A DNA stretch of 53,240 nt from Eggerthia catenaformis OT 569 = DSM 20559 (GTDB taxonomy: Bacteria; Bacillota_I; Bacilli_A; Erysipelotrichales; Coprobacillaceae), in assembly GCF_000340375.1 (NCBI RefSeq), contig NZ_KB446649.1:278627-331866 (forward strand), written 5' to 3'. Position 1 is the stretch's first letter. Each line of letters opens with the position of its first letter. A program made the position numbers and the translations under genes. Shown piece after piece: positions 4,310 through 16,134 of this stretch. The notes beneath the pieces were generated by a model. It searched no databases, had not been told where the DNA came from, and saw only the letters and a list, made by a program, of their open reading frames with translations.

Positions 4310-5116
4310 CTAATTAAATTTTAAATGAATAACCAAAGTTCTCTTTAATTTATCTGCAAAATACATATATATTCTTGTTATTAGCTTTAGTCCCTCACAA
4401 TACTTCAAAGCATCCTGATAAAAGCCATTAACTTCTATTAGTTTTGTATTTGTTAGTTGTGCAAATTCTTTCGGATCATCAACACTAAAATACATTTGTG
4501 CATCTATATTTCCGGTTTTCTTCACATATTTATTAGCAAGCTTTAAACCTTTAGAATTAGTTGCATCAAATACTAATTCTCCCTTAGGGATTAACAGTTT
4601 CATAGTTTTAATCATCTCTATAATCCTGTCTTTATCAAAATACTGGTATACTCCTGAAACAACAATCATTGTTGGCAGGGTAACATCTATTTCTTTAATC
4701 CATTCACAATTAAACATATCTCCTAATATCAGCTTTTCATTATCCCCATTTCCTAACACTTTTTTTCTAATAGCTATAACATCAGATAAATCTACCTGAT
4801 AAAAATAAGCTTTAGTATTTTTAATACGATTATAGGCTGTTTCCAGTCCGGCTCCTAAGAATACTACATTGCTTTGACTATTTTCTTTAAGAAACTTTAT
4901 TATCTTTTGATCTATCGTCTGCTGGCGGCAGACACTCGCCATATAAAAATATTCAGTAGTATTATTCCTTATACTATCTGTGGGGATATATTGTCTTAAT
5001 GATAACGCCTTCCGATCATAAAAGAATTTTGGAAACTTCTCAGATACATATATTCTTGCTACAAGCGGGATATATAAAGTATCTTCTACTCCATGAAGTA
5101 AATTTTCTTTATTCAT
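4310..5116 (-). CDS. LCM-family SAM-dependent methyltransferase
   Basis: A 268-residue class I methyltransferase of the leucine carboxyl methyltransferase / COG3315 group. The N-terminal VEDTLYIPLVARIYVSE (about residues 10-26) is the family's opening motif. The SAM-binding loop is VVFLGAGLETAYNRI (about 84-98), followed by the acidic YQVDLSD that ends strand beta 2 and VVSGVYQYF near residue 153. Family members methylate carboxyl or hydroxyl groups of proteins or secondary metabolites; the substrate here cannot be told. No biosynthetic partner is adjacent. The gene has its own 113-bp upstream region and its own terminator, so it is probably monocistronic. Confidence 0.8.
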   Translation of the reverse strand: MNKENLLHGVEDTLYIPLVARIYVSEKFPKFFYDRKALSLRQYIPTDSIRNNTTEYFYMASVCRQQTIDQKIIKFLKENSQSNVVFLGAGLETAYNRIKNTKAYFYQVDLSDVIAIRKKVLGNGDNEKLILGDMFNCEWIKEIDVTLPTMIVVSGVYQYFDKDRIIEMIKTMKLLIPKGELVFDATNSKGLKLANKYVKKTGNIDAQMYFSVDDPKEFAQLTNTKLIEVNGFYQDALKYCEGLKLITRIYMYFADKLKRTLVIHLKFN

Positions 5117-5230
5117 ACTATCTTCCTCCCTCTAATCTATTTATATTTTATCACTTTTTATAAGTCTTTACAGCATTGCAGATAATAGAAATACAAGCTG
5201 TCTTTATTTCTTCTTTCTTGTAACAGAATG

Positions 5231-5857
5231 TTAAGTCATCCTTATACATTTTTTGTTTGTTTTAGTGTAATTGTTGTCTTTTAGCCATTTAGCAAAAGTT
5301 GTATGACTAATATCGAGATGTCTGGCAGCTTCTCTAAGACTTATCTCATTCCTGCTCCATTTTCCAGCCATATCATAAAATTCCTTTGGAATTGCTTTTC
5401 TGGTTCTACCAAATCTGACTCCTCTTTTTCTTGCCTCCTCTATTCCTTCCATCTGTCTCTGATGAGTATTCTCCCTCTCAACCTGTGCCACATAAGAAAG
5501 GATCTGTAAGACAATATCTGCTATAAATTTGCCGGTTAAATCATTTACTTTTGCTCTTGTATCAAGAAGCGGAAAGTCCAGTACAATGATTTCTGCATTC
5601 TTTATTTTTGTGATCAGATTCCATTCATTAATAATTTCATCATAATTTCTGCCCAGTCTGTCAATAGACTTAATATATATTTCATCTCCCTCCTTTAATT
5701 TTTTAATCAGCTTCTTATATTTTCTGCGATTGAAGTTCTTTCCGCTTGCTTTATCAACATAAATTTTATTACCTTCAATCCCTTCTTTTAAAATAGCTGT
5801 TAATTGTCTGTCAATGTTCTGTTCTTTTGTTGAAACTCGTATATATCCATATTTCAT
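5231..5857 (-). CDS. Serine recombinase (resolvase/invertase family)
   Basis: A 208-residue small serine recombinase. The catalytic serine is Ser9 in YIRVSTKEQ, and IKSIDRLGRN (about residues 63-72) holds the conserved arginines. A long helix (about 110-140) is followed by a C-terminal helix-turn-helix, SLREAARHLDISHTTFAKWL (about 173-192), that would bind the recombination site. Length and order fit Tn3-type resolvases and Hin/Gin-type invertases. No transposase or invertible segment is recognisable nearby, so it is a stand-alone gene or what is left of an element. Two near-palindromes lie in the 355 bp upstream and are the natural candidates for its target sites. Confidence 0.88.
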   Translation of the reverse strand: MKYGYIRVSTKEQNIDRQLTAILKEGIEGNKIYVDKASGKNFNRRKYKKLIKKLKEGDEIYIKSIDRLGRNYDEIINEWNLITKIKNAEIIVLDFPLLDTRAKVNDLTGKFIADIVLQILSYVAQVERENTHQRQMEGIEEARKRGVRFGRTRKAIPKEFYDMAGKWSRNEISLREAARHLDISHTTFAKWLKDNNYTKTNKKCIRMT

Positions 5858-6212: not shown

Positions 6213-7583
6213 TCATTGTTCTCTATCTTGTTTTATCCTTTGTGTAAGTTCAATAAGATGCTTATACTCCCCAATTAGCAAAATAATTGCAATCAAAACA
6301 ACAATAACATCGCTCAAAGGTAATGCCAGCCACACTCCAAGAACATTTCCATTGAGTACACGAGGCAATATAAGCACCAAAGGAACTATCAGAGCAAATT
6401 GCCTTAAGATAACCACTATTCCTGCTTGCTTTGCCTTTCCAATAGCCTGAAAATAGGTAACTATCATGATAAGTAATCCATAAGCAGGAAAGATACAATA
6501 CATCAGACGAAAATTTAATAAACCTGAATTTACAATAGCTGAATCAGTAATAAATGCAGATAAAATTTGCACTGCAAAAATTTCAATTACTACAAAGAAA
6601 AAGCCGGCAAGACAAGTAGAACCTGCAATAAATACATTTGTAAGCTTTTTAACTCGCAGATATTCTTTTGCTCCAAAATTTGTTCCAACAGCAGGCTGCA
6701 TTCCCTGACTCATACCCCATATCGGAACAAAAACAAGCTGCAGGACTCTTTGAGCGGCTCCCATGAGAGCTATTTGCTTTGCTCCGCCAAAATGCACTGC
6801 CGTATTATATACAACCGTCATTTGTACCAGCATCATAATTTGCATAAGCATAGCACTCATTCCTACAGAAAAGATTTCAGGTAATAAATCTTTTGCAGGC
6901 TTTATTTCATGAAAACGAACTACCGGGCTCTTTTTCAAGAAGTATATAAAAGTTACCAGAGCTTGAATGAATTGAGAAAATACAGTTGCAATTGCAACAG
7001 CTTGCGGACCTCGAGACGGCATAAGCAAGATAAAGATTGGATCCAATATGATATTGAGAATAGCACCGGTTGCCATGATTCCCATTGCTATTCCCATACG
7101 ACCTTCCGCTCGAATCACCATATTTGCAGCTTGCATGAAATTTACCAATATGGAACCAAGATAAACTGTCCTCAAATAAGAAATACCCATTTTCAGTACA
7201 TCTCCGCCGGCACCGGATAAACGTAAGAATTCAGAGGCAAATACAATTCCGATAATCATAACAGCTGATGACAGTATAAGAACTAAAAAAGTAAGATTTC
7301 CCATGATCTTATCAACGGTTTTTTGATCTTTTTTCCCAATTGCTCGAGAAAGTACAGAACCCGATCCTATTCCCAGCAGTACTGCAATTGCATTATTTAT
7401 CAGTACAAATGGTGATGCTGCTGAAATCGCACTCATAGCATTAGTTCCTACCATTTGTCCAACGTAGATTGAATCAACAAAGGCATATAAGCCTACTATC
7501 AGCTGACCTAAAATTGCGGGTAAACTAAGACTAATCATCAGCTTCCAAGGATTTCCCGTAAGTAATTTATTACGAATATCCAT
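6213..7583 (-). CDS. MATE-family efflux transporter
   Basis: A 456-residue membrane protein with about 12 hydrophobic segments and the two-fold repeat of MATE exporters. The N-terminal half opens with GNPWKLMISLSLPAILGQLI and continues with YAFVDSIYVGQMVG, both typical of the family. The second half repeats the pattern near residue 235 (SVGMSAMLMQIMMLVQMTVV). MATE proteins expel drugs or metabolites using Na+ or H+ gradients. The ribosome binding site AAGGAGGG lies just before ATG 7583. It follows the hydrolase-family gene by 84 bp on the same strand and may be the last gene of the ECF/ABC transport operon or a separate unit. Substrate unknown. Confidence 0.9.
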   Translation of the reverse strand: MDIRNKLLTGNPWKLMISLSLPAILGQLIVGLYAFVDSIYVGQMVGTNAMSAISAASPFVLINNAIAVLLGIGSGSVLSRAIGKKDQKTVDKIMGNLTFLVLILSSAVMIIGIVFASEFLRLSGAGGDVLKMGISYLRTVYLGSILVNFMQAANMVIRAEGRMGIAMGIMATGAILNIILDPIFILLMPSRGPQAVAIATVFSQFIQALVTFIYFLKKSPVVRFHEIKPAKDLLPEIFSVGMSAMLMQIMMLVQMTVVYNTAVHFGGAKQIALMGAAQRVLQLVFVPIWGMSQGMQPAVGTNFGAKEYLRVKKLTNVFIAGSTCLAGFFFVVIEIFAVQILSAFITDSAIVNSGLLNFRLMYCIFPAYGLLIMIVTYFQAIGKAKQAGIVVILRQFALIVPLVLILPRVLNGNVLGVWLALPLSDVIVVLIAIILLIGEYKHLIELTQRIKQDREQ

Positions 7584-7667
7584 TATAAAACCCTCCTTAA
7601 TTTTTTTATTGTACTTTTAATACTCCCATATTCAAACATTCAAAAAAATACTATCTTTATCCTAAGA

Positions 7668-8276
7668 TTATATTTTTTCAGACTCATTCTTTTGATTTTT
7701 GCCTTTCTCGTTTATAAAACAAAAGTCACATTTTTCACCATTCATTCCCAATGTCTGACTTCGCTTAAATACAAATCCTTTTATACCACCAAATACAATA
7801 TGATCACAAAGACAGAATACCTCACAAAGATCCGGGCATTCAAAAAACTCACAAGTTTCCACCCAAAGGCATTTAAGAACATCCACACAGTAATATCTGT
7901 CATCATCTAATAGAACTCTGCTTTTCCATATTTCATCACCCAACATTCCTTTTTTCATAAAAAATCGAAATACTCTGAAAAAACAGGGAATATAGAAAAA
8001 TGTTTTTAAAAGCTTATGTCGCTTATCTGCAATATGAAATGAATGCTCTTTTACCAATTCTTTTGCCTCACTTTTTGAAAAACCTTTATCCATAAAACAT
8101 TTATATAGGGCTATGTTAGAAATTATTCTGCTTTTCTGTATCTTTTTTTGTTTTTCTGTCCATGACTCTCGATTAATTTCTTCAATAAGAATATTTATTT
8201 TCCTTTTATACTCTGCATCTATATCCTCTAATATATGTTCAGCTAATCTTCCGGAGTAAAATTTTCTATATGTCAT
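7668..8276 (-). CDS. ATC-hydrolase-family protein (L-2-amino-thiazoline-4-carboxylic acid hydrolase-like)
   Basis: About 202 residues. The Cys-rich second half (CEFFECPDLCEVFCLCDHIV, then KRSQTLGMNGEKCDFCF) matches the ATC hydrolase family, whose founding pseudomonad member opens a thiazoline ring on the way to cysteine. Start choice: an ATG at 8282 overlaps the preceding stop as ATGA but is only 2 bases from AGGAG; ATG 8276 is 7 bases from it and is preferred. The N-terminal half is helical and has one hydrophobic patch (TFFYIPCFFRVFRFFM). The tight coupling to the upstream ABC transporter suggests that it acts on the transported compound. Family membership is fairly sure; the reaction is inference. 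Confidence 0.75.
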   Translation of the reverse strand: MTYRKFYSGRLAEHILEDIDAEYKRKINILIEEINRESWTEKQKKIQKSRIISNIALYKCFMDKGFSKSEAKELVKEHSFHIADKRHKLLKTFFYIPCFFRVFRFFMKKGMLGDEIWKSRVLLDDDRYYCVDVLKCLWVETCEFFECPDLCEVFCLCDHIVFGGIKGFVFKRSQTLGMNGEKCDFCFINEKGKNQKNESEKI

Positions 8277-8278
8277 AA

Positions 8279-10027
8279 TCATTCTCCTAATTTCCATCCT
8301 ATTGCATTTTCTCGAATTTCCACAAATCGCCGATAAAGACCTTCCTGATGCATAAGCTGCTGATGGTTTCCTTTTTGAACAATTCGTCCATTATCAAGTA
8401 CAAGAATCTGATCTGCTCTTCGCACTGTATTCAGTCGATGAGCAATCATAAGAAGTGTTTTATTTTTTGTTAATTCCGAAATAGCCCTTTGTAATTCTCG
8501 TTCATTTTCAGGATCTACACTCGCCGTAGCCTCATCCAAAATGATAATAGGTGCATCCTTTAAAATAGCTCGTGCAATAGATATTCGCTGCTTCTCTCCA
8601 CCTGAAAGAGTTGCACCTCCCTCTCCAATCTTTGTCTGATATCCGTCAGGAAGTGCAGATATAAAATCATGGCAGCATGCTTTTTTTGCTGCTAAAATCA
8701 TTTCTTCTCTTGTTGCCTGCGGTTTTCCAAAAAGAATATTATTTTCAATAGTATCTTCAAAAAGATATACCTTTTGAAATACAATAGAAAAATTCTTAAG
8801 GAGACTGTCACAGGTATAGTCTTTTACATTATTACCACCTAAAAGAATTTCACCATTCTGTACATCCCAAAACCTTGCAATTAAACTGCAAAGAGTTGTT
8901 TTTCCTGAACCTGAAGGTCCTACAATCGCACAGCTTGTTCCCTGAGGAACAGAAAAGCTTACATTGCTTATAACTTTCTTTTCATCGTATGCGAAAGAAA
9001 TATCTGAAACAGTAATATCATAAGCTTTCGGAGTAAGATCTATTCCATGTTCATCCAAAAGCGGCATTTTTGATACAACTTCCAATTTGTCTAAAGAAGT
9101 ATCTATAACTCTTGCAACGGCAGCCGTACTTCCTGCCAGCTCTACTGTTGTATAAATCATAAAGCTTGCAACAATAAGAAGCAGACACTTTTCAGGTGTA
9201 GTTTCTCCTTTCATAAGCAAATATGGGGCAGTAATCAGAATAACAAATCTTGATAACTTGAACACCATTTGAAACACAGCAGCTAAGCTGGAAAAAACTT
9301 TTTCTAATACAATGTTTGCCTCCGCACTTTCATTGATTGCATTATCCACAGATTTATTCGAGCGATTAGCAAGCCCAAACGCTTTAATTACGGTTATACC
9401 CTGTATATATTCCAAAACACTTGTCACAAGATCGACCTGTGCAGCCTGCCTACGTGGAGAATACTTCACGCCGGCTTTTTGTGTTTTTCCATATATTAAG
9501 AGCGACAAAATAAGTCCGATAAACATTAAAACACCTATTCTCCATTCATAAAACAAAAGCCATATTCCTATCACTACAGCATGAATAAACCCTCCAAATA
9601 CCGCTTCCATAACAGTAACTGCACTGCTTTCAAGATCTCCAAGAGTAGTAGTAACTGCCGCTGTGATATCGCCAAGCCGATGCTCATTAAAATATCCCAT
9701 AGGTACACGTTTTAATTTTTCTCCAAGCTCCATACGCCATTTTGAACACATAGAAAAACTTCCGAGAGTTCTTTTTACAGAAGAAAGATTCGTAAAAAGA
9801 ATACGTCCAAAAACACTTAAAAACATAATTCCAAATGAGATACCGATAGTTTCAATTGGCATGATGCCCTTTGAAAGTGATAATAATATTCCATTCAGAA
9901 CCGTAAGTACAGCCATAATAGGAAGCATCTCAAATACAGAATTACACATATGAAAGATAAACGATAAAATCAAGTTATTTCTTTCTGTTCCGGAAAAATC
10001 TAAAAGTCGTCTAAACATCTGAATCAT
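8279..10027 (-). CDS. ABC half-transporter, permease-ATPase fusion (second of pair)
   Basis: 582 residues: a six-helix exporter-type membrane domain (about 1-310) fused to an ATPase with Walker A GPSGSGKTT, signature LSGGEKQR and Walker B IIILDEAT, then the H-loop MIAHRLNTV. All nucleotide-binding motifs are intact. It starts at 10027 with ATGA overlap to the stop of the preceding half-transporter, and AAGGAGG lies 7 bases upstream. The two half-transporters very likely form a heterodimer. Pairs of this build next to ECF-type genes occur in siderophore uptake loci (YbtP/YbtQ type) as well as in drug export; fold alone cannot tell direction. Confidence 0.92.
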   Translation of the reverse strand: MIQMFRRLLDFSGTERNNLILSFIFHMCNSVFEMLPIMAVLTVLNGILLSLSKGIMPIETIGISFGIMFLSVFGRILFTNLSSVKRTLGSFSMCSKWRMELGEKLKRVPMGYFNEHRLGDITAAVTTTLGDLESSAVTVMEAVFGGFIHAVVIGIWLLFYEWRIGVLMFIGLILSLLIYGKTQKAGVKYSPRRQAAQVDLVTSVLEYIQGITVIKAFGLANRSNKSVDNAINESAEANIVLEKVFSSLAAVFQMVFKLSRFVILITAPYLLMKGETTPEKCLLLIVASFMIYTTVELAGSTAAVARVIDTSLDKLEVVSKMPLLDEHGIDLTPKAYDITVSDISFAYDEKKVISNVSFSVPQGTSCAIVGPSGSGKTTLCSLIARFWDVQNGEILLGGNNVKDYTCDSLLKNFSIVFQKVYLFEDTIENNILFGKPQATREEMILAAKKACCHDFISALPDGYQTKIGEGGATLSGGEKQRISIARAILKDAPIIILDEATASVDPENERELQRAISELTKNKTLLMIAHRLNTVRRADQILVLDNGRIVQKGNHQQLMHQEGLYRRFVEIRENAIGWKLGE

Positions 10028-11769
10028 GCTACCACCTCCTTAGTATCAAGTGCACTGATGTGTGCATCCCAAAGTTCTCTGTAAAGAACACAGTTTCCAA
10101 TAAGTTTCGTATGTGTTCCTTCTGCCTCTATATTTCCTTCATTCATGACAATAATCTTATCTGCTGATGTAATAGTAGAGAGGCGGTGTGCAATTATAAT
10201 CAGTGTTTTCCCCGCTACAAGTCTGTTTATAGAATGCTGAATAGCTAATTCATTTTCAGGATCAGTAAATGCCGTAGCTTCGTCTAAAATAACAATAGGG
10301 CTATTCTTTAATATGGCTCTAGCAATAGCAATACGCTGCTTTTCTCCGCCCGAAAGATTACTTCCACTATCTCCTACAACAGTATCATATCCATTTGGAA
10401 GTGAAGTAATAAAATTATGACATGCTGCTTCTTTCGCCGCATTTTCTATGTCCTTATCTGTAGCATCAGGCTTTCCAATTTTTATATTTTCTCGAATTGA
10501 AAGATGAAAAAGATAATTATCCTGCGAAACATATGCAATATGCTCCATGACCTGAGAAAGGGGTATATCCAGTACATTCATACCGCCTATTTTCACAACT
10601 CCACTTCCTACATTCCAGAAAGATGCGATTAATCGTGCAACAGTCGTTTTTCCTGATCCTGATGGTCCTACAAAAGCCGTCATTTCATTTGCATTAGCTA
10701 TAAATGAAATATTATGCAGAACCTCTGTATTATCATAAAAAAAGGAAACATTTGAAAACTCTATATTCCCGCCATCAAGTTTCACGTACTCTTCGGGACG
10801 TTTCATCTCTTCTGTATCTAAAAGACTTCCAATTTCTTTAACAGTAGCATCTACCATAGCAAGACTGTCTGTATACCGTAATGCCTGAATAAGAGGAGCA
10901 ATAAGACCCATGGATAAAATAATACAGGATATAAAATTACCTGCACTTATATTTCCATTTATGTAGAATAAGCTTCCGATAGGAAGAACTCCCAGTAAAC
11001 TTGAAGGTGCTATTGCAATACCTGCTACATAGTAGGGATTGGTTCTTTTAAACCATTCTGATTTAGCATTTTCATTTTCTTTCACAGCTTCTGCATATTT
11101 GCGGTAAGAAGTACTACTTTGATTAAATGCTTTAACTACTTCTATTCCCCCTATATATTCAACAGTTGCGGCATCCATAAATTTAGCAGCCGCCATAACT
11201 CTGGTATAGTGCTTCTCATAATCTTTCATCATACCTATATAGCAAAGCATTCCGACAGGAAAGGTTGTAAGAGAAATGAGTGCAAGTCGCCAATCAAGAA
11301 CCATGAAATAAATTATCATTAAGATAGGAATCACAATATTAGCTATCAATTCCGGTATCATATGAGCAAGAGGTAACTCTAATTTTTCAACAGTATCAAC
11401 TATCATGGTTTTAAATTTTCCTGAAGGTGTATCTAAAACGAATCCCATAGGTACTCGTGATAGTTTCTTTGTAAGTGCAATACGAATATTTTTCAGTACA
11501 GTAAAAGCAGCCCTATGAGATCGTACAGTAGATACGGTCGCCAGACAAAGCTGCAAAAGATAACTCAAAAGAGCAATAATCGCCATTAGGATAATTGATT
11601 TTAAGTTATAATCACCGGAGCATATTTGAATAATAATACGTGAAACTGTAATATATGGAATTATTCCAAATCCTGCACCCAGAACAGCAAAAATAATTGA
11701 ACTGACAAGCAATCCTTTACAAGGCTTAGCAAACTCAAATAAGCGATGCAATGTGTTTTTATTATTCAT
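10024..11769 (-). CDS. ABC half-transporter, permease-ATPase fusion (first of pair)
   Basis: 581 residues with the same layout as its neighbour: membrane domain about 1-310, Walker A GPSGSGKTT, signature LSGGEKQR, Walker B IVILDEAT and H-loop IIAHRLST. The start ATG 11769 overlaps the end of the ECF ATPase gene by 8 bp, with GGAGGG upstream inside that gene, so translation is coupled. No peptidase C39 domain is present and no bacteriocin precursor lies nearby, which argues against peptide export. Together with the partner it is the import/export core of the operon. Confidence 0.92.
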   Translation of the reverse strand: MNNKNTLHRLFEFAKPCKGLLVSSIIFAVLGAGFGIIPYITVSRIIIQICSGDYNLKSIILMAIIALLSYLLQLCLATVSTVRSHRAAFTVLKNIRIALTKKLSRVPMGFVLDTPSGKFKTMIVDTVEKLELPLAHMIPELIANIVIPILMIIYFMVLDWRLALISLTTFPVGMLCYIGMMKDYEKHYTRVMAAAKFMDAATVEYIGGIEVVKAFNQSSTSYRKYAEAVKENENAKSEWFKRTNPYYVAGIAIAPSSLLGVLPIGSLFYINGNISAGNFISCIILSMGLIAPLIQALRYTDSLAMVDATVKEIGSLLDTEEMKRPEEYVKLDGGNIEFSNVSFFYDNTEVLHNISFIANANEMTAFVGPSGSGKTTVARLIASFWNVGSGVVKIGGMNVLDIPLSQVMEHIAYVSQDNYLFHLSIRENIKIGKPDATDKDIENAAKEAACHNFITSLPNGYDTVVGDSGSNLSGGEKQRIAIARAILKNSPIVILDEATAFTDPENELAIQHSINRLVAGKTLIIIAHRLSTITSADKIIVMNEGNIEAEGTHTKLIGNCVLYRELWDAHISALDTKEVVA

Positions 11770-13228
11770 TATGATACCCTCCTGCTAAGAGATAATCGTC
11801 TATATTCTCTTTTTCTTTACCTTTCAAATCAGCAATAATTTTACCTCCTGATAAAACCAAAACTCTGGAACATATTGTTTTTATAAATTCAATATCATGT
11901 GTAATAATAAGTAAGATTTTTCCTTGTTTGGAAAGATACTCTATCATAGTTCCCACTTCCTGCATACTTTTTAAATCAAGACCACTGGTTGGTTCATCAA
12001 AAATAAGAATTTCTTTATCACAAAGCAAACTGATAGCTACTGCAAGACGCTGCTTTTGACCTCCTGAGAGTGACAGGGGATGTCTGTCTTTCAATTCAGA
12101 AAGAGATAACATCGATAAGGTTTCATCAATATCGGTATCATTTACTGCTTTAGTTCCAAGTGTGCATTCGGTCTCTACGCTATCTGTAAAAAGCTGATGT
12201 CCAACATCCTGCATAACCATATAAGATTTTTTGATACGTGCTTTTGCAGGGAAATTCTTTCCATTTATAAGTATCTCGCCTGATTTTTGTTTTATTAATC
12301 CACATATAGTGCGTGCCAGCGTTGTTTTTCCTGCTCCGTTTGCACCCGTAACTGCAATGATTTCTCCACCATTTGCAACAAAAGAAACATCTTTTAGGAT
12401 TGTATGATCACCATATTTAATCCTAATATCTTTCAATTCTAAGATGTGCCCGGATATTTTTTTGATATTCATATTTGTTTTGATTTCAGAAAAATATCGG
12501 CATCGAAGTTCCATATTTTGTATCTGTTTTGTTGGTAGTATACAAAAATCCTGCATCCTCATATCTTTAAAGATTTGACCATCCTTCATTAAAATAACTC
12601 TATCTGCAATATCTATTAAGTACCATAAACGATGTTCAGCAATAATAATTGTTTTTCCTTGCTGTTTTATTCTTTTTATCAGTTTTTTCAATTCAAGTAC
12701 AGAATGAAAGTCTAAATTTGAAGATGGCTCATCTAACACAAAAATATCGGGATTTGTGACATATACAGATGCAAATGCAATTTTTTGTTTTTCTCCGCCG
12801 GAAAGCTTAAAAATACTGCATTCTCTTAATTTTTCTATATGTAAATCTTTAATAGTTTTTTCAAGCTGCTGTTTTAATTCTTTAGGATCAAGAGCTCTAT
12901 TTTCCAGTCCAAACACAATTTCACTGTCTGTATCTGTATTAAAAAATTGTGTTCGCGGATTTTGAAAAACTGTACCTACACTATCAGAAAGATCTGAAAT
13001 TTCAATTTCAACAGTATTCATTCCATTTACAGTTACCTTACCTGAAAGCTTTCCCTCAAAAAAATGAGGAATTAATCCATTCACTAATCTTGCAAGAGTT
13101 GTTTTACCACACCCGGATGGACCACATAAAAGAACACATTGCCCTTTTGGAATCTTTAAATTTATTTCCCGTAAAGCACTTTTTTCTATACCTTTGTAAG
13201 AAAAAGAGAGTTTTGTAAATTCAATCAA
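11762..13228 (-). CDS. ECF-type ABC transporter ATPase with two nucleotide-binding domains
   Basis: 488 residues with two complete ATPase domains in one chain. The first has Walker A GPSGCGKTT, signature LSGGEKQK and Walker B IFVLDEPSS; the second has GANGAGKTT, LSGGQKQR and ILIFDEPTSG. This replaces the separate EcfA1 and EcfA2 subunits. The frame is open further upstream, but a TTG at 13228 gives a TTGA overlap with the EcfT stop and lies 9 bases after GGGGAGG, so it is chosen; the alternative ATG 13246 would bury that ribosome binding site. ECF ATPases energise uptake of vitamins and metal chelates through EcfT and an S component, both encoded just upstream. Confidence 0.88.
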   Translation of the reverse strand: MIEFTKLSFSYKGIEKSALREINLKIPKGQCVLLCGPSGCGKTTLARLVNGLIPHFFEGKLSGKVTVNGMNTVEIEISDLSDSVGTVFQNPRTQFFNTDTDSEIVFGLENRALDPKELKQQLEKTIKDLHIEKLRECSIFKLSGGEKQKIAFASVYVTNPDIFVLDEPSSNLDFHSVLELKKLIKRIKQQGKTIIIAEHRLWYLIDIADRVILMKDGQIFKDMRMQDFCILPTKQIQNMELRCRYFSEIKTNMNIKKISGHILELKDIRIKYGDHTILKDVSFVANGGEIIAVTGANGAGKTTLARTICGLIKQKSGEILINGKNFPAKARIKKSYMVMQDVGHQLFTDSVETECTLGTKAVNDTDIDETLSMLSLSELKDRHPLSLSGGQKQRLAVAISLLCDKEILIFDEPTSGLDLKSMQEVGTMIEYLSKQGKILLIITHDIEFIKTICSRVLVLSGGKIIADLKGKEKENIDDYLLAGGYHNE

Positions 13229-13932
13229 GGAAATATACCTCCCCATACTAAATTTAAAACTATCATACAAATAATTCCCATATATATACTTATAATTAAA
13301 GCATCCCAAACCGAAAAACATACCTTCTCCAAACAACTTCGTCTTCCAATATGATCAATTCCCCTTGTAATAGCAGCCTGTGTAATTTCGTCAGAAATTT
13401 TGGATGCAGACACCAGCATTGGTACATACACATATTCCATTATTTTGACAGGATGACGTAGAACCCCTGTAAAAGAAACAGTTATTCCACGAAGTACCAT
13501 AGCATCTTTAATACAGTTCCATTCCTCAGCCATTGTCGGGAAGTAGCGCAAAGTAACGGAAAGTGCAATTGTAAAGCCCTTAGATAAATGCAATCGGCTA
13601 AGAGCGGCAAGAAAAGTACTTACCTTTGTTGTATGTATTAAAAATGTCCCAAGCATAAAACATGGAATCAGTTTTCTAATATAGATATCAAACATATATA
13701 TAATTGCTCCTACAGTAATAGGCAGCTTTAATATTAGAAATAGCTGTGTCATCAATAATATGATAAAAAGTATTCCATACTTTGAAACAGTTAGAAACTC
13801 TTTTGCCTGTAAAAGAAGCAATATAGAGATTACTGTAAAAAGACATTCTATGACTATACTTTCATTCAAAAAAACGAAAACACTTGTTATTGATAAAATC
13901 AGCAGTTTTGTTCTGGGATCCAAACTCATCAT
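13225..13932 (-). CDS. EcfT-like transmembrane component of ECF transporter
   Basis: 235 residues with several hydrophobic helices. The opening SLDPRTKLLIL is the CbiQ/EcfT family start. The cytoplasmic coupling region contains TLRYFPTMAEEW (about 130) and ISDEITQAAITRGI (about 185), matching the A-R-G coupling motifs that contact the ATPases, here with ITRGI as the second. The start ATG 13932 overlaps the S-component stop as ATGA. EcfT links S component and ATPases in the membrane. Its place between an MptD-type S component and a double ATPase makes a complete dedicated ECF module. Confidence 0.88.
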   Translation of the reverse strand: MMSLDPRTKLLILSITSVFVFLNESIVIECLFTVISILLLLQAKEFLTVSKYGILFIILLMTQLFLILKLPITVGAIIYMFDIYIRKLIPCFMLGTFLIHTTKVSTFLAALSRLHLSKGFTIALSVTLRYFPTMAEEWNCIKDAMVLRGITVSFTGVLRHPVKIMEYVYVPMLVSASKISDEITQAAITRGIDHIGRRSCLEKVCFSVWDALIISIYMGIICMIVLNLVWGGIFP

Positions 13933-14534
13933 ATAATCCCCGCTTTTTTAAAATGCTTTTTCAACAGTTTTTTACCAATAAAGCCTCCAATCATAGCACA
14001 AATAATTGTTCCCAAAATCAGCAAAGGAATAATCCACCAATTATCCCTGATAGTATTGATGATTCCTGAAAAAGAAGAGACATCTCCTTTCCTATGCATA
14101 AACTCATCAAACTGTGCAGGCATTATAACCATAGGAATATAGGCACCCATTGGCGATAGAGCAAAGATACAATAAGCAAATAAATTTCTCTTGAATGATC
14201 TGAATTTTCCTGTCGAACAAATAAAATCTGCAATAAATCCAAAGATGATGAAAAATACAGACATCATCCAAAACATACCTGTAATAAACAATAAGATTCC
14301 GGCAAGTATACCAAGTATCGAAAGTGAACCTTGTTTTGGTATCTTAGCAATATACAGCATAAAGATACTGCCGGCAAATAAAGCAACGATCATTGGCATA
14401 AATGGAAAAGTAACAGGTGTCATCTGTGAAATACCGCCTATTACAAAGGCAACAATAAAATAAATAAGTGAAAAAACACCTATGGAAATATAATCTCTTG
14501 TTTGTAATATATTTTCATTTTTCTTCATAATCAT
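13929..14534 (-). CDS. MptD-family ECF transporter S component
   Basis: 201 residues, about six hydrophobic segments. It fits the MptD (Trep_Strep) family of putative substrate-specific ECF components by its DYISIGVFSLIYFIVAFVIG opening, central AGILLFITGMFWM and basic C-terminus (GKKLLKKHFKKAG). In the family the ligand is unassigned. GGAAGGA precedes the start at 14534; ATG 14528 is an alternative start. It is the first gene of the transport operon, 59 bp from the regulator gene, and likely sets substrate specificity for the module. Confidence 0.8.
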   Translation of the reverse strand: MIMKKNENILQTRDYISIGVFSLIYFIVAFVIGGISQMTPVTFPFMPMIVALFAGSIFMLYIAKIPKQGSLSILGILAGILLFITGMFWMMSVFFIIFGFIADFICSTGKFRSFKRNLFAYCIFALSPMGAYIPMVIMPAQFDEFMHRKGDVSSFSGIINTIRDNWWIIPLLILGTIICAMIGGFIGKKLLKKHFKKAGII

Positions 14535-14556
14535 TTATATCCTTCCAATAAATTTA

Positions 14557-14570
14557 TTAGTTTAAACTAA
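14557..14570. promoter_or_regulatory. Palindrome TTAGTTTAAACTAA in front of the transport operon
   Basis: A perfect 14-bp palindrome lies in the 59-bp gap between the TetR gene and the S-component gene, 22 bp upstream of the latter's start. The size and position fit a TetR-type operator. Its sequence differs from the palindrome in front of tetR itself. Confidence 0.5.
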
Positions 14571-14584
14571 CTTAAATATAAAAT

Positions 14585-14610
14585 TTTTAAGGCCTATATA
14601 AGCCTTAAAA
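14585..14610 (-). terminator. Weak hairpin at the end of the TetR gene
   Basis: Arms TTTTAAGGC and GCCTTAAAA enclose an 8-base loop and overlap the TetR stop codon. The following T run on the minus strand is short, so it may only attenuate read-through into the transport operon. Confidence 0.45.
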
Positions 14611-15208
14611 GTCCAGTCCATCCGGAATTAAAGAAAATAGCAAGCTCATTAACATATTCAATCGCCTGCTCTCTTGACATATCATGAACAACCGTTTCGA
14701 ATGCAGCCGTAAAATATGCACTGGTAATCATGTGATGAAGTTCATGGCTGACATTACCTGTCATTTTCCCTTTTTCTTTGAGAAGAACATAGTATCTCTC
14801 CGTACGAGATACGTCCAATTCTACAAGTTCATGAATATAATTTGCATATTTCGTACCTTCAGAACAACAAATGACAAGTTTGAATTCTTCAAAATGATCA
14901 TAAATATAATTCACAAAATGCAAAAGATATTTTGTAGATAATTCTCGGCTTTCATTAGTCTTACCTTCAGGAATTAAATCAAAATGTGCATCCTGTGCAG
15001 CTTTGAATTGTTCTATTAGATTATCTGCCACATCCGAAACAAGCGCTTCAAACAAAGCTGCTTTATCCGGATAATAGCCATAAAATGCACCCTTAGTAAA
15101 GCCTGCATCCGTTACAATTTTTCTGAGCGATGCATCCTTAAAACCTTTTTTCAAAAACTCTCGCTTGCCGGCCTCCAATATTTTCTGCTGTGTTTCTGAT
15201 ATTCTCAT
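14594..15208 (-). CDS. TetR/AcrR-family transcriptional regulator
   Basis: 204 residues. The N-terminal helix-turn-helix is clear: ILEAGKREFLKKGFKDASLR, KIVTDAGFTKGAFYGYYPDK (about residues 10-50), followed by a helical ligand-binding and dimerisation domain. GGGAGA precedes the start at 15208. Its promoter overlaps a perfect 28-bp palindrome, which strongly suggests autorepression. It is transcribed in the same direction as the transport operon and 59 bp ahead of it, so it most likely controls that operon. The inducer is unknown; a ligand related to the transported compound is the simplest guess. Confidence 0.9.
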   Translation of the reverse strand: MRISETQQKILEAGKREFLKKGFKDASLRKIVTDAGFTKGAFYGYYPDKAALFEALVSDVADNLIEQFKAAQDAHFDLIPEGKTNESRELSTKYLLHFVNYIYDHFEEFKLVICCSEGTKYANYIHELVELDVSRTERYYVLLKEKGKMTGNVSHELHHMITSAYFTAAFETVVHDMSREQAIEYVNELAIFFNSGWTGLLRLI

Positions 15209-15225
15209 GATTATCTCCCTACTTA

Positions 15226-15253
15226 TATACCAGTGGTATATACCACTGGTATA
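15226..15253. promoter_or_regulatory. 28-bp perfect palindrome, operator of the TetR regulator
   Basis: The sequence is two overlapping 15-mers, TATACCAGTGGTATA and TATACCACTGGTATA, sharing two bases. Each is itself palindromic except for its central base. It overlaps the -10 element and start-site region of tetR, 17 bp before the start codon. The doubled form suggests two bound dimers. Confidence 0.85.
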
Positions 15254-15686: not shown

Positions 15687-15881
15687 TTACTCGGTGTATA
15701 TCTCACCGTGATGATATGCGCCTACATGCCGAATTGCTCCACGCTCCGGAAAAATTCCCAAGCTGAAAATTATATGAGAAGCGGTGGCAGATTCTAACAA
15801 ATTATCGGCAATATAGGCATAGATTTCGTCTAAATCCATGTAGGCACGGGAATAGAGCTTGACAATATATTTATCTAAAAT
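15687..15881 (-). pseudogene. Broken ParE/RelE-type toxin gene
   Basis: The frame reads DKYIVKLYSRAYMDLDEIYA, YIADNLLESATASHI, then FPERGAIRHVGAY before a stop, 64 codons in all. Intact ParE/RelE toxins have about 95-105 residues. The helix region between ESATA and the PERG motif is missing about 15-20 residues, and the C-terminal strand region after GAY is lost. The expected start codon reads ATT where ATG would be, after a good AAGGAGA site. So the toxin is almost certainly inactive. It lies 28 bp after the intact antitoxin gene. Confidence 0.7.
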
Positions 15882-15909
15882 GCTTTCTCCTTAAAGAAGA
15901 AAGGGCATC

Positions 15910-16134
15910 TCATGCATCCGGCAATTCACCAGTTGTGGCAAATTCCTTTTCAGCTTTGTTTATCGCAGCATCTATCTGTGCCATCTCAAACATTTTCTCA
16001 TATGCCTCAATGCTCATAACCACTAGATCTCCATAGCCGTTTTTTGTGATAAATAGAGGTTTATTCTTTGCATGACAAAGCTTTAAAATTTCAGTAATGT
16101 TTCTTAAATCCGTAATCGGGCTGATTTGTGGCAT
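15910..16134 (-). CDS. Phd/YefM-family antitoxin
   Basis: 74 residues. The N-terminal DNA-binding fold is typical: ISPITDLRNITEILKLCHAK, then NKPLFITKNGYGDLVVMSIE, followed by an acidic helical tail (MFEMAQIDAAINKAEKEF) that normally wraps the toxin. AGGAGGT lies 7-8 bases before the start at 16134. Family members neutralise RelE/ParE toxins and repress their own promoter at palindromes; a perfect inverted repeat lies 17 bp upstream. Its toxin partner downstream is broken, so the protein is probably an orphan, either decaying or acting as an anti-addiction or regulatory protein. Confidence 0.85.
   Translation of the reverse strand: MPQISPITDLRNITEILKLCHAKNKPLFITKNGYGDLVVMSIEAYEKMFEMAQIDAAINKAEKEFATTGELPDA

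Follow-up and report, generated by a model that had tools for sequence, protein, structure and literature searches.

The window, meaning the whole stretch of 53,240 nucleotides analysed here (Eggerthia catenaformis OT 569 = DSM 20559, contig NZ_KB446649.1, positions 278,627 to 331,866), contains a transporter cassette of eight genes, all on the minus strand. They encode a TetR-family regulator, the S component, EcfT and EcfA of an energy-coupling factor (ECF) importer, two ABC half-transporters (ABC1 and ABC2), an ATC-family protein and a MATE exporter. The end of the cassette had been claimed at 15253 in a preliminary description made from the sequence alone, and this is the last base of a palindrome ahead of tetR. 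The features are as follows, with the evidence for each in brackets.

15226 to 15253, no strand: probable TetR operator, a perfect 28-bp palindrome (palindrome and shuffle control)
14594 to 15208 (15208-14594), minus strand: TetR-family regulator, 204 aa (TetR_N match)
14535 to 14593, minus strand: stretch between tetR and the S-component gene, with a TTAG-N6-CTAA palindrome (also in orthologues, with another centre)
13929 to 14534, minus strand: ECF S component, MptD family (PF09605/TIGR02185), 201 aa (profile match)
13225 to 13932, minus strand: ECF T component (CbiQ), 235 aa (profile match)
11762 to 13228, minus strand: ECF double ATPase, 488 aa from TTG 13228 (profile match and start reading)
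10024 to 11769, minus strand: ABC half-transporter 1 (ABC1), YbtP/IrtA-like transmembrane domain (structure-relative search and control)
8279 to 10027, minus strand: ABC half-transporter 2 (ABC2) (profile match)
7668 to 8297, minus strand: ATC_hydrolase-family (PF14196) protein with conserved C143, C162 and C190 (start probably 8282 or 8276)
6213 to 7583, minus strand: MATE exporter, 456 aa (profile match)

Family assignments are profile matches above the curated cut-offs of Pfam and NCBIfam. The S component matches the MptD family TIGR02185 with 184 bits (cut-off 76), EcfT matches CbiQ with 58 bits (cut-off 25), and EcfA, which contains two ABC_tran stretches, matches the ECF ATPase family TIGR04520 with 323 bits (cut-off 315). 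ABC1 and ABC2 each combine ABC_membrane with ABC_tran, the MATE protein matches matE with 175.5 bits (cut-off 147.4), and the ATC-family protein matches ATC_hydrolase with 58.8 bits (cut-off 28.1) and has no NCBIfam match. With an S component above the cut-off and both T and A present, the cassette encodes an ECF transporter of the MptD type. Starts and stops overlap or touch at each junction from the S component through the ATC gene, and outside this block TetR and MATE are spaced by 59 and 84 bases, respectively; open reading frame (ORF) coordinates and family matches confirm the gene set, order and overlaps given in the preliminary description. The EcfA ORF spans 524 aa, and its real start is most likely TTG 13228, which would give 488 aa and a 4-base overlap with EcfT and is also the start in the orthologous locus L003. 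For the ATC gene, a reading of the sequence makes ATG 8282 or 8276, downstream of AGGAG, more likely than 8297; the relatives in L007 and L008 also start there.

Read by eye, the 28-bp palindrome overlaps what is probably the -10 box of tetR. When searched against the window with up to three mismatches it matched only itself, and shuffles gave a mean of 0.05 matches, 4 of 100 having one. Its counterparts are a perfect 44-bp palindrome in Pseudoramibacter (L006), a perfect 38-bp palindrome with a paired base change in L007, and 24-base arms around a 5-base centre in L003. The palindrome is thus kept in three relatives although its letters differ, which is strong evidence for a conserved, probable TetR operator. 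The second, shorter palindrome, TTAG-N6-CTAA, lies between tetR and ecfS; orthologues keep it with an altered centre, and it may be a second operator or a hairpin.

When genome contigs were scanned with the ATC protein, six orthologues of the cassette turned up, along with one lone ATC relative in a Tissierellia metagenome-assembled genome. The orthologues belong to Alterileibacterium, Eubacterium callanderi, Peptoniphilus senegalensis, Pseudoramibacter, Mogibacterium timidum and Peptostreptococcus sp. MV1. The hosts are not all Clostridia, as Peptoniphilus belongs to the Tissierellia. Proteins of the window cassette are 71-88% identical to those of the six Bacillota orthologues. Copies L003, L004, L005 and L009 share 97.7-99.9% DNA identity over 15-17 kb, their hosts belonging to four families in three orders, and the window DNA is about 82% identical to these four. 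Within the host's own family the ATC gene occurs in 2 of 43 genomes, namely the host itself and one weak partial match. Judged by these sequence comparisons, the cassette is mobile and has been transferred between distantly related anaerobes.

Relaxase genes lie beside at least two of the six orthologues. The cargo of L005 is flanked by a relaxase/MobC pair on one side and a sigma-like gene on the other. In L003 a sigma-like gene follows the cargo, with a relaxase in the adjoining locus L029; Pfam supports this relaxase, a topoisomerase and a recombinase of L031. A conjugative element with a relaxase and a sigma-like gene flanking its cargo is what we take to be the Tn1549 type. The possibility that the window copy still resides within such an element was rejected, as it is not flanked by these two genes: tblastn searches of the window with reference proteins (E 0.01) gave no trace of a relaxase, sigma, topoisomerase, helicase, replication or recombinase gene. 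Plasmid searches returned one 24% match for the S component and none for the ATC protein, and IMG/VR scans with either protein found no relative.

TetR, S, T, A, ATC and MATE are common to all seven copies, and the other genes differ from copy to copy. In five of the six orthologues a class I methyltransferase and a further S-T-A set lie between ATC and MATE; both are absent from the window and Mogibacterium copies. Four orthologues have a beta-lactamase-fold hydrolase behind MATE. The Mogibacterium copy (L007) also lacks both half-transporters and has a clean EcfA-to-ATC junction. Just behind MATE in the Pseudoramibacter copy (L006 15051-17840) lie genes for a Fur-family regulator, a ZnuA-type binding protein and an ABC ATPase. 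No further match to reference DtxR or Fur proteins came from the window or the six orthologous loci.

The cassette belongs to a larger family of modules that combine MptD-type ECF importers with half-transporters. Two samples of genomes around the host were searched for PF09605 S components (E 0.001): 10 of 198 genomes have them in one sample and 17 of 392 in the other, of which 6 and 11 have one above the cut-off. With six, the host leads these samples, in which the runner-up has three, and the six genomes bearing orthologous cassettes have 6, 5, 4, 10, 5 and 8 (38 in total). In the Peptoniphilus family 87 of 120 genomes have at least one, with a maximum of 11; given such different baselines, six copies are unusual among the host's sampled relatives and not among all carriers. 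Neighbourhoods were compared in 44 loci: 11 of the 12 above-cut-off S hits of the 198-genome sample (the twelfth being the window) and 33 loci that cover all 38 S hits in the six cassette-bearing genomes. This set includes the near-identical copies L003, L004, L005 and L009, and excludes the window, L050 (S component below the cut-off), other hits below the cut-off, and the above-cut-off S components of G244, G261, G277, G349, G551 and of the Peptoniphilus family besides G424.

All 44 loci have T and A, and two or more half-transporters lie within 9 kb in 40, the exceptions being L007, L037, L058 and L071. Other genes are TetR (22 loci), sigma-like (14), MATE (13), relaxase (10), ATC (6) and DtxR-like (4); the counts for TetR, MATE, DtxR, sigma and relaxase vary with the choice of reference proteins and are likely underestimates, and the DtxR and some TetR references were drawn from the same loci. 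Among the DtxR-like genes, those of L044 and L067 have both iron-dependent-repressor domains by Pfam and lie, on the same strand, 53 and 21 bases behind the second half-transporter; L057 has the N-terminal domain only and L054 was recognised by reference match. Within the host, four of the six modules (L037, L040, L041 and L042) adjoin relaxase, recombinase or sigma-like genes. One of these, a second host cassette with the order TetR-S-T-A-ABC-ABC-MATE-sigma (L042 8699-18363), is 96% identical over 9.7 kb to L072 of Mogibacterium timidum, which points to recent transfer. Another host module (L037-L038, G000:C5), which stands behind a recombinase gene with no half-transporters close by, is accompanied by MATE, two alpha/beta hydrolases, a methyltransferase and an LCM-type methyltransferase. 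In a tree built from 44 S components, after removal of six near-copies from an original 50, the window protein and its orthologues make up a firm clade; the two S components linked to nonribosomal peptide synthetase (NRPS) genes do not cluster with each other, and those linked to DtxR, four in number, are spread over at least three places.

These two NRPS-linked modules lie directly beside NRPS and thiazolinyl imide reductase genes, in Peptostreptococcus sp. MV1 and in Pseudoramibacter. In the former (L078, L056), split NRPS genes and two thiazolinyl imide reductases precede a TetR-S-T-A-ABC-ABC-MATE module on the same strand, together with a protein that has a weak reductase match and a methyltransferase domain and with a possible hydrolase below the Pfam cut-off; the TetR frame of this module is only 132 aa long and a short EcfA fragment stands before MATE. 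In the latter (L077, L079), the two ABC genes are followed on the same strand by an NRPS gene, a saccharopine-dehydrogenase-like gene and a thiazolinyl imide reductase. The three reductases score 233.7, 206.8 and 217.9 against a TIGR01761 cut-off of 188.8, and all match Irp3-like_C. The host module L041 is a close relative of the L056 module (proteins 74-88% identical, DNA 80.5% over 6.2 kb). Meanwhile, the host genome (1.94 Mb in 8 contigs) has no match to the NRPS condensation domain PF00668, a search that does not cover siderophore synthesis by other routes, which agrees with the earlier statement that no NRPS gene accompanies the cassette. L041, an L056-like module in a host that lacks NRPS, is a copy of the uptake part alone, and the NRPS-linked module and its NRPS-less counterpart predict one shared ligand. 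Condensation domains were found in 4 of 11 other genomes searched, where most of the NRPS genes are not beside a module.

The half-transporters were compared with proteins of solved structure. Searches by transmembrane part place ABC1 in the YbtPQ/IrtAB type, with YbtP (6e-17) and IrtA (2.6e-15) ahead of TM_0288 (1.6e-9) and MsbA (3.5e-8), so that the YbtP-like half-transporter of the preliminary description holds for this protein. IrtA and YbtP also ranked top for a relative in L026 (42% identical to ABC1), and a control half-transporter from the same genome led to YheI, Sav1866 and a multidrug transporter, with no YbtP or IrtA among the best 60 of 133 matches. Among the half-size chains matched by full length, ABC1 was nearest YbtP (293 bits) and ABC2 nearest MsbA (285 bits); the transmembrane part of ABC2, as a single sequence, found no YbtQ or IrtB at 1e-5. 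YbtPQ and IrtAB differ from the window system in having no ECF part, and ABC2 is not placed with YbtQ/IrtB.

The closest described layout is that of eqbH-L on ICESe2 of Streptococcus equi, where, according to PMC3672683, the importer genes eqbHIJ are followed by eqbK and eqbL, each a fused permease-ATPase, and EqbKL is likened to YbtPQ. The S-T-A-ABC-ABC order of the window agrees with this described order, as had been supposed, and loci of both kinds are found on mobile elements. In contrast to the window, with its TetR, ATC-family protein and MATE and no synthesis genes, the eqb locus as described includes a DtxR-like regulator along with NRPS genes for synthesis. The genetics reported there show that eqbHIJ is needed for equibactin-linked iron import, as its deletion blocks the equibactin-linked iron effects; deletion of eqbKL does not, and export by EqbKL is suggested. 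Because eqbKL deletion spares the equibactin-linked phenotype and both half-transporter genes are missing from the Mogibacterium copy, the ABC pair is not necessarily the uptake arm that the preliminary description took it for, and by this analogy ABC1-ABC2 may import or export. The conjugative 023_CTn1 of Clostridioides difficile RT023 carries, by its published table (PMC6814731), sigma-70, ABC, ABC, regulator, ABC ATPase, Ecf and membrane protein genes in a row, an order which resembles that of the modules beside sigma-like genes; it differs in its NRPS, thiazolinyl imide reductase and AraC regulator. Furthermore, a table for Parvimonas micra isolates lists TetR, ABC, ABC, ATPase, EcfT, MptD and sigma-70 genes (PMC11076991).

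Taken together, the locus is best read as a mobile uptake cassette, equibactin-like in type and under TetR control, whose substrate is most likely a siderophore-type metal chelate made by other bacteria; we put the probability of this reading at roughly 0.6. The case for siderophore-type import is good at the level of the module family, as it draws on the neighbours in other genomes, a sister module in the same genome and the reported deletion phenotypes of one system with the same gene layout. In the window cassette itself, siderophore-type import without NRPS synthesis is likely, with a substrate that we infer; a thiazoline chelator in particular is a tentative proposal, rather more apt to prove wrong than right. 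The thiazoline link drawn in the preliminary description is retained in so far as two related modules lie beside NRPS and thiazolinyl reductase genes and one has a host copy without NRPS, and the hydrolase step on which it also leaned is not. In the proposed mechanism, TetR would bind the palindrome over its own promoter until a small ligand, probably the substrate, released it. The S component would capture the substrate outside the cell and the T-A motor would import it, as the family suggests, and the half-transporter pair would act on this compound or one derived from it, either importing it in addition or exporting it again. The ATC-family protein, with its three conserved cysteines, would bind or modify the imported compound, the methyltransferase, second S-T-A set and beta-lactamase-fold hydrolase would also take part in the fuller copies, and MATE would export the product or the metal-free chelator.

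Several observations weigh against this reading. No DtxR-like or NRPS-type neighbour was seen at the window cassette or the six orthologues (NRPS judged by ORF listing and domain positions), the regulator being a TetR, and the only metal genes seen beside any orthologue are the Fur/ZnuA-type genes behind the Pseudoramibacter copy, which may be there by chance. NRPS genes were seen next to only 2 of the 44 modules, and the search for the reductase covered these two loci, with no genome-wide control. The window S component is 16-30% identical to the host's other five, so substrates may differ widely, and the tree does not resolve the next relatives of its clade. Full-length searches with ABC1 and ABC2 put fused eukaryotic ABCB transporters first, and by a five-sequence profile ABC2 is as near to exporters as to YbtQ, an ABC-type bacteriocin transporter, Sav1866, MsbA and YbtQ coming out with similar ranks. 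Drug or toxin handling would also suit TetR, MATE, methyltransferase and hydrolase, and the presumed kinship with EqbH-L rests on a published description of gene order.

The ATC-family protein bears on both the proposed mechanism and a different substrate. Its likeness to the ATC hydrolase family (PF14196) consists of a domain-wide profile match and shared cysteines, in an aligned set that lacks the founding enzyme. Across 14 members from ten contexts, C143 and C190 are present in all and W124, C162, D165, R179 and T182 in at least 90%, the window protein being 15-55% identical to the ten non-orthologous members aligned. The gene occurs in 6 of the 44 module loci, all orthologues of the window cassette, and in neither NRPS-linked module, so the ATC protein was rejected as a general part of this transporter type. 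An AlphaFold model built with eight sequences was set aside (pLDDT 53), and searches for relatives of solved structure, with the single sequence and with a 14-sequence profile, found none that was credible. A passage in PMC5847659 likens the family to HNOB and V4R domains, and this likeness together with the narrow distribution tells against the ring-opening hydrolase of the preliminary description: from sequence, thiazoline ring opening, with the remains leaving through MATE, is a weak proposal and a role in binding metal or ligand at least as likely as ring opening.

The same published likeness supports an unlikely alternative, in which the ECF part imports heme or a related tetrapyrrole and the ATC protein, as kin of HNOB/V4R, carries or modifies it. 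LhaSTA of Staphylococcus lugdunensis is a heme-specific ECF importer (PMC7299338) and is, like the window system, a dedicated ECF importer for an iron compound; it lies in an isd locus, and the likeness is drawn from the published description. Pfam searches of eight ATC-family proteins (E 10) gave no HNOB or V4R match, only unrelated weak ones, no annotated cassette gene belongs to a heme or cobalamin enzyme family, and the two related modules adjoin NRPS and thiazolinyl reductases.

Detoxification or drug resistance is likewise improbable as the role of the cassette. TetR would sense an antimicrobial, the half-transporters and MATE would export it, the methyltransferase and hydrolase would inactivate it and the ECF part would serve a linked nutrient. 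The presence of TetR, MATE and half-transporters suits this, as do the methyltransferase and beta-lactamase-fold hydrolase of the fuller copies, the relaxase or sigma-like genes beside several modules and the eukaryotic drug exporters at the head of the full-length half-transporter searches. Against it, the ECF importer is the part common to all 44 loci, the Mogibacterium copy keeps it without either half-transporter, and the transmembrane part of ABC1 is nearest to siderophore importers. Vitamins are the cargo of the best-known ECF importers, but import of a vitamin or other ordinary micronutrient, with unrelated accessory genes, is very unlikely: nearly all loci have a T-A motor of their own and a pair of half-transporters, there are many divergent copies per genome, and some modules have NRPS or DtxR neighbours, features that do not fit one common vitamin.

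We propose, with somewhat less than even confidence, that modules of MptD-type ECF importers and half-transporters form a large, conjugatively shared repertoire with which small Gram-positive anaerobes import the siderophores of others, playing the part that arrays of TonB-dependent receptors have in Gram-negative bacteria. Their hosts would keep the uptake half of their neighbours' NRPS loci without the synthesis half, and the window cassette would be a member with ligand-processing enzymes of its own. The new part is the multi-module, partly element-borne repertoire, of which no description was found among the PMC papers covered (a collection that omits most subscription papers), nor was an assigned substrate for MptD S components found there. 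To our knowledge, metal competition among Gram-positive anaerobes is poorly known. If the proposal is true, MptD S components would mark many chelator importers, among them the 38 of the six cassette-bearing genomes and those of the Peptoniphilus-family genomes in which at least one occurs (87 of 120).

Some lesser observations concern the ATC family and the surroundings of the cassette. That ATC-family proteins work with methyltransferases is a lead only: a class I methyltransferase stands behind the ATC gene in the five fuller orthologues, and an LCM-type methyltransferase lies 1.3 and 1.9 kb from ATC in G099 (L022) and G002 (L025) and adjacent to it in L008, but none was seen by eye, with no family search, near ATC in L021, L023, L024, L027 and L028. 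Locus L026, a 15-kb contig with the order ABC-ABC-ATC-methyltransferase, has no match to S or T references, indicating that the ATC protein can accompany half-transporters with no ECF genes nearby. The host has a second ATC-family protein at L024 (G000:C2:356888-357289), with no transporter evident by eye among its near neighbours. Between tRNA-Arg and the cassette, within 15700-16134, lie a Phd/YefM-type antitoxin gene (16134-15910, minus strand, Pfam 35 bits) and after it an apparently broken toxin gene, as judged by eye. Directly behind the cassette, at 4310-5857 of the window on the minus strand, are genes for an LCM-type methyltransferase and a small serine recombinase.

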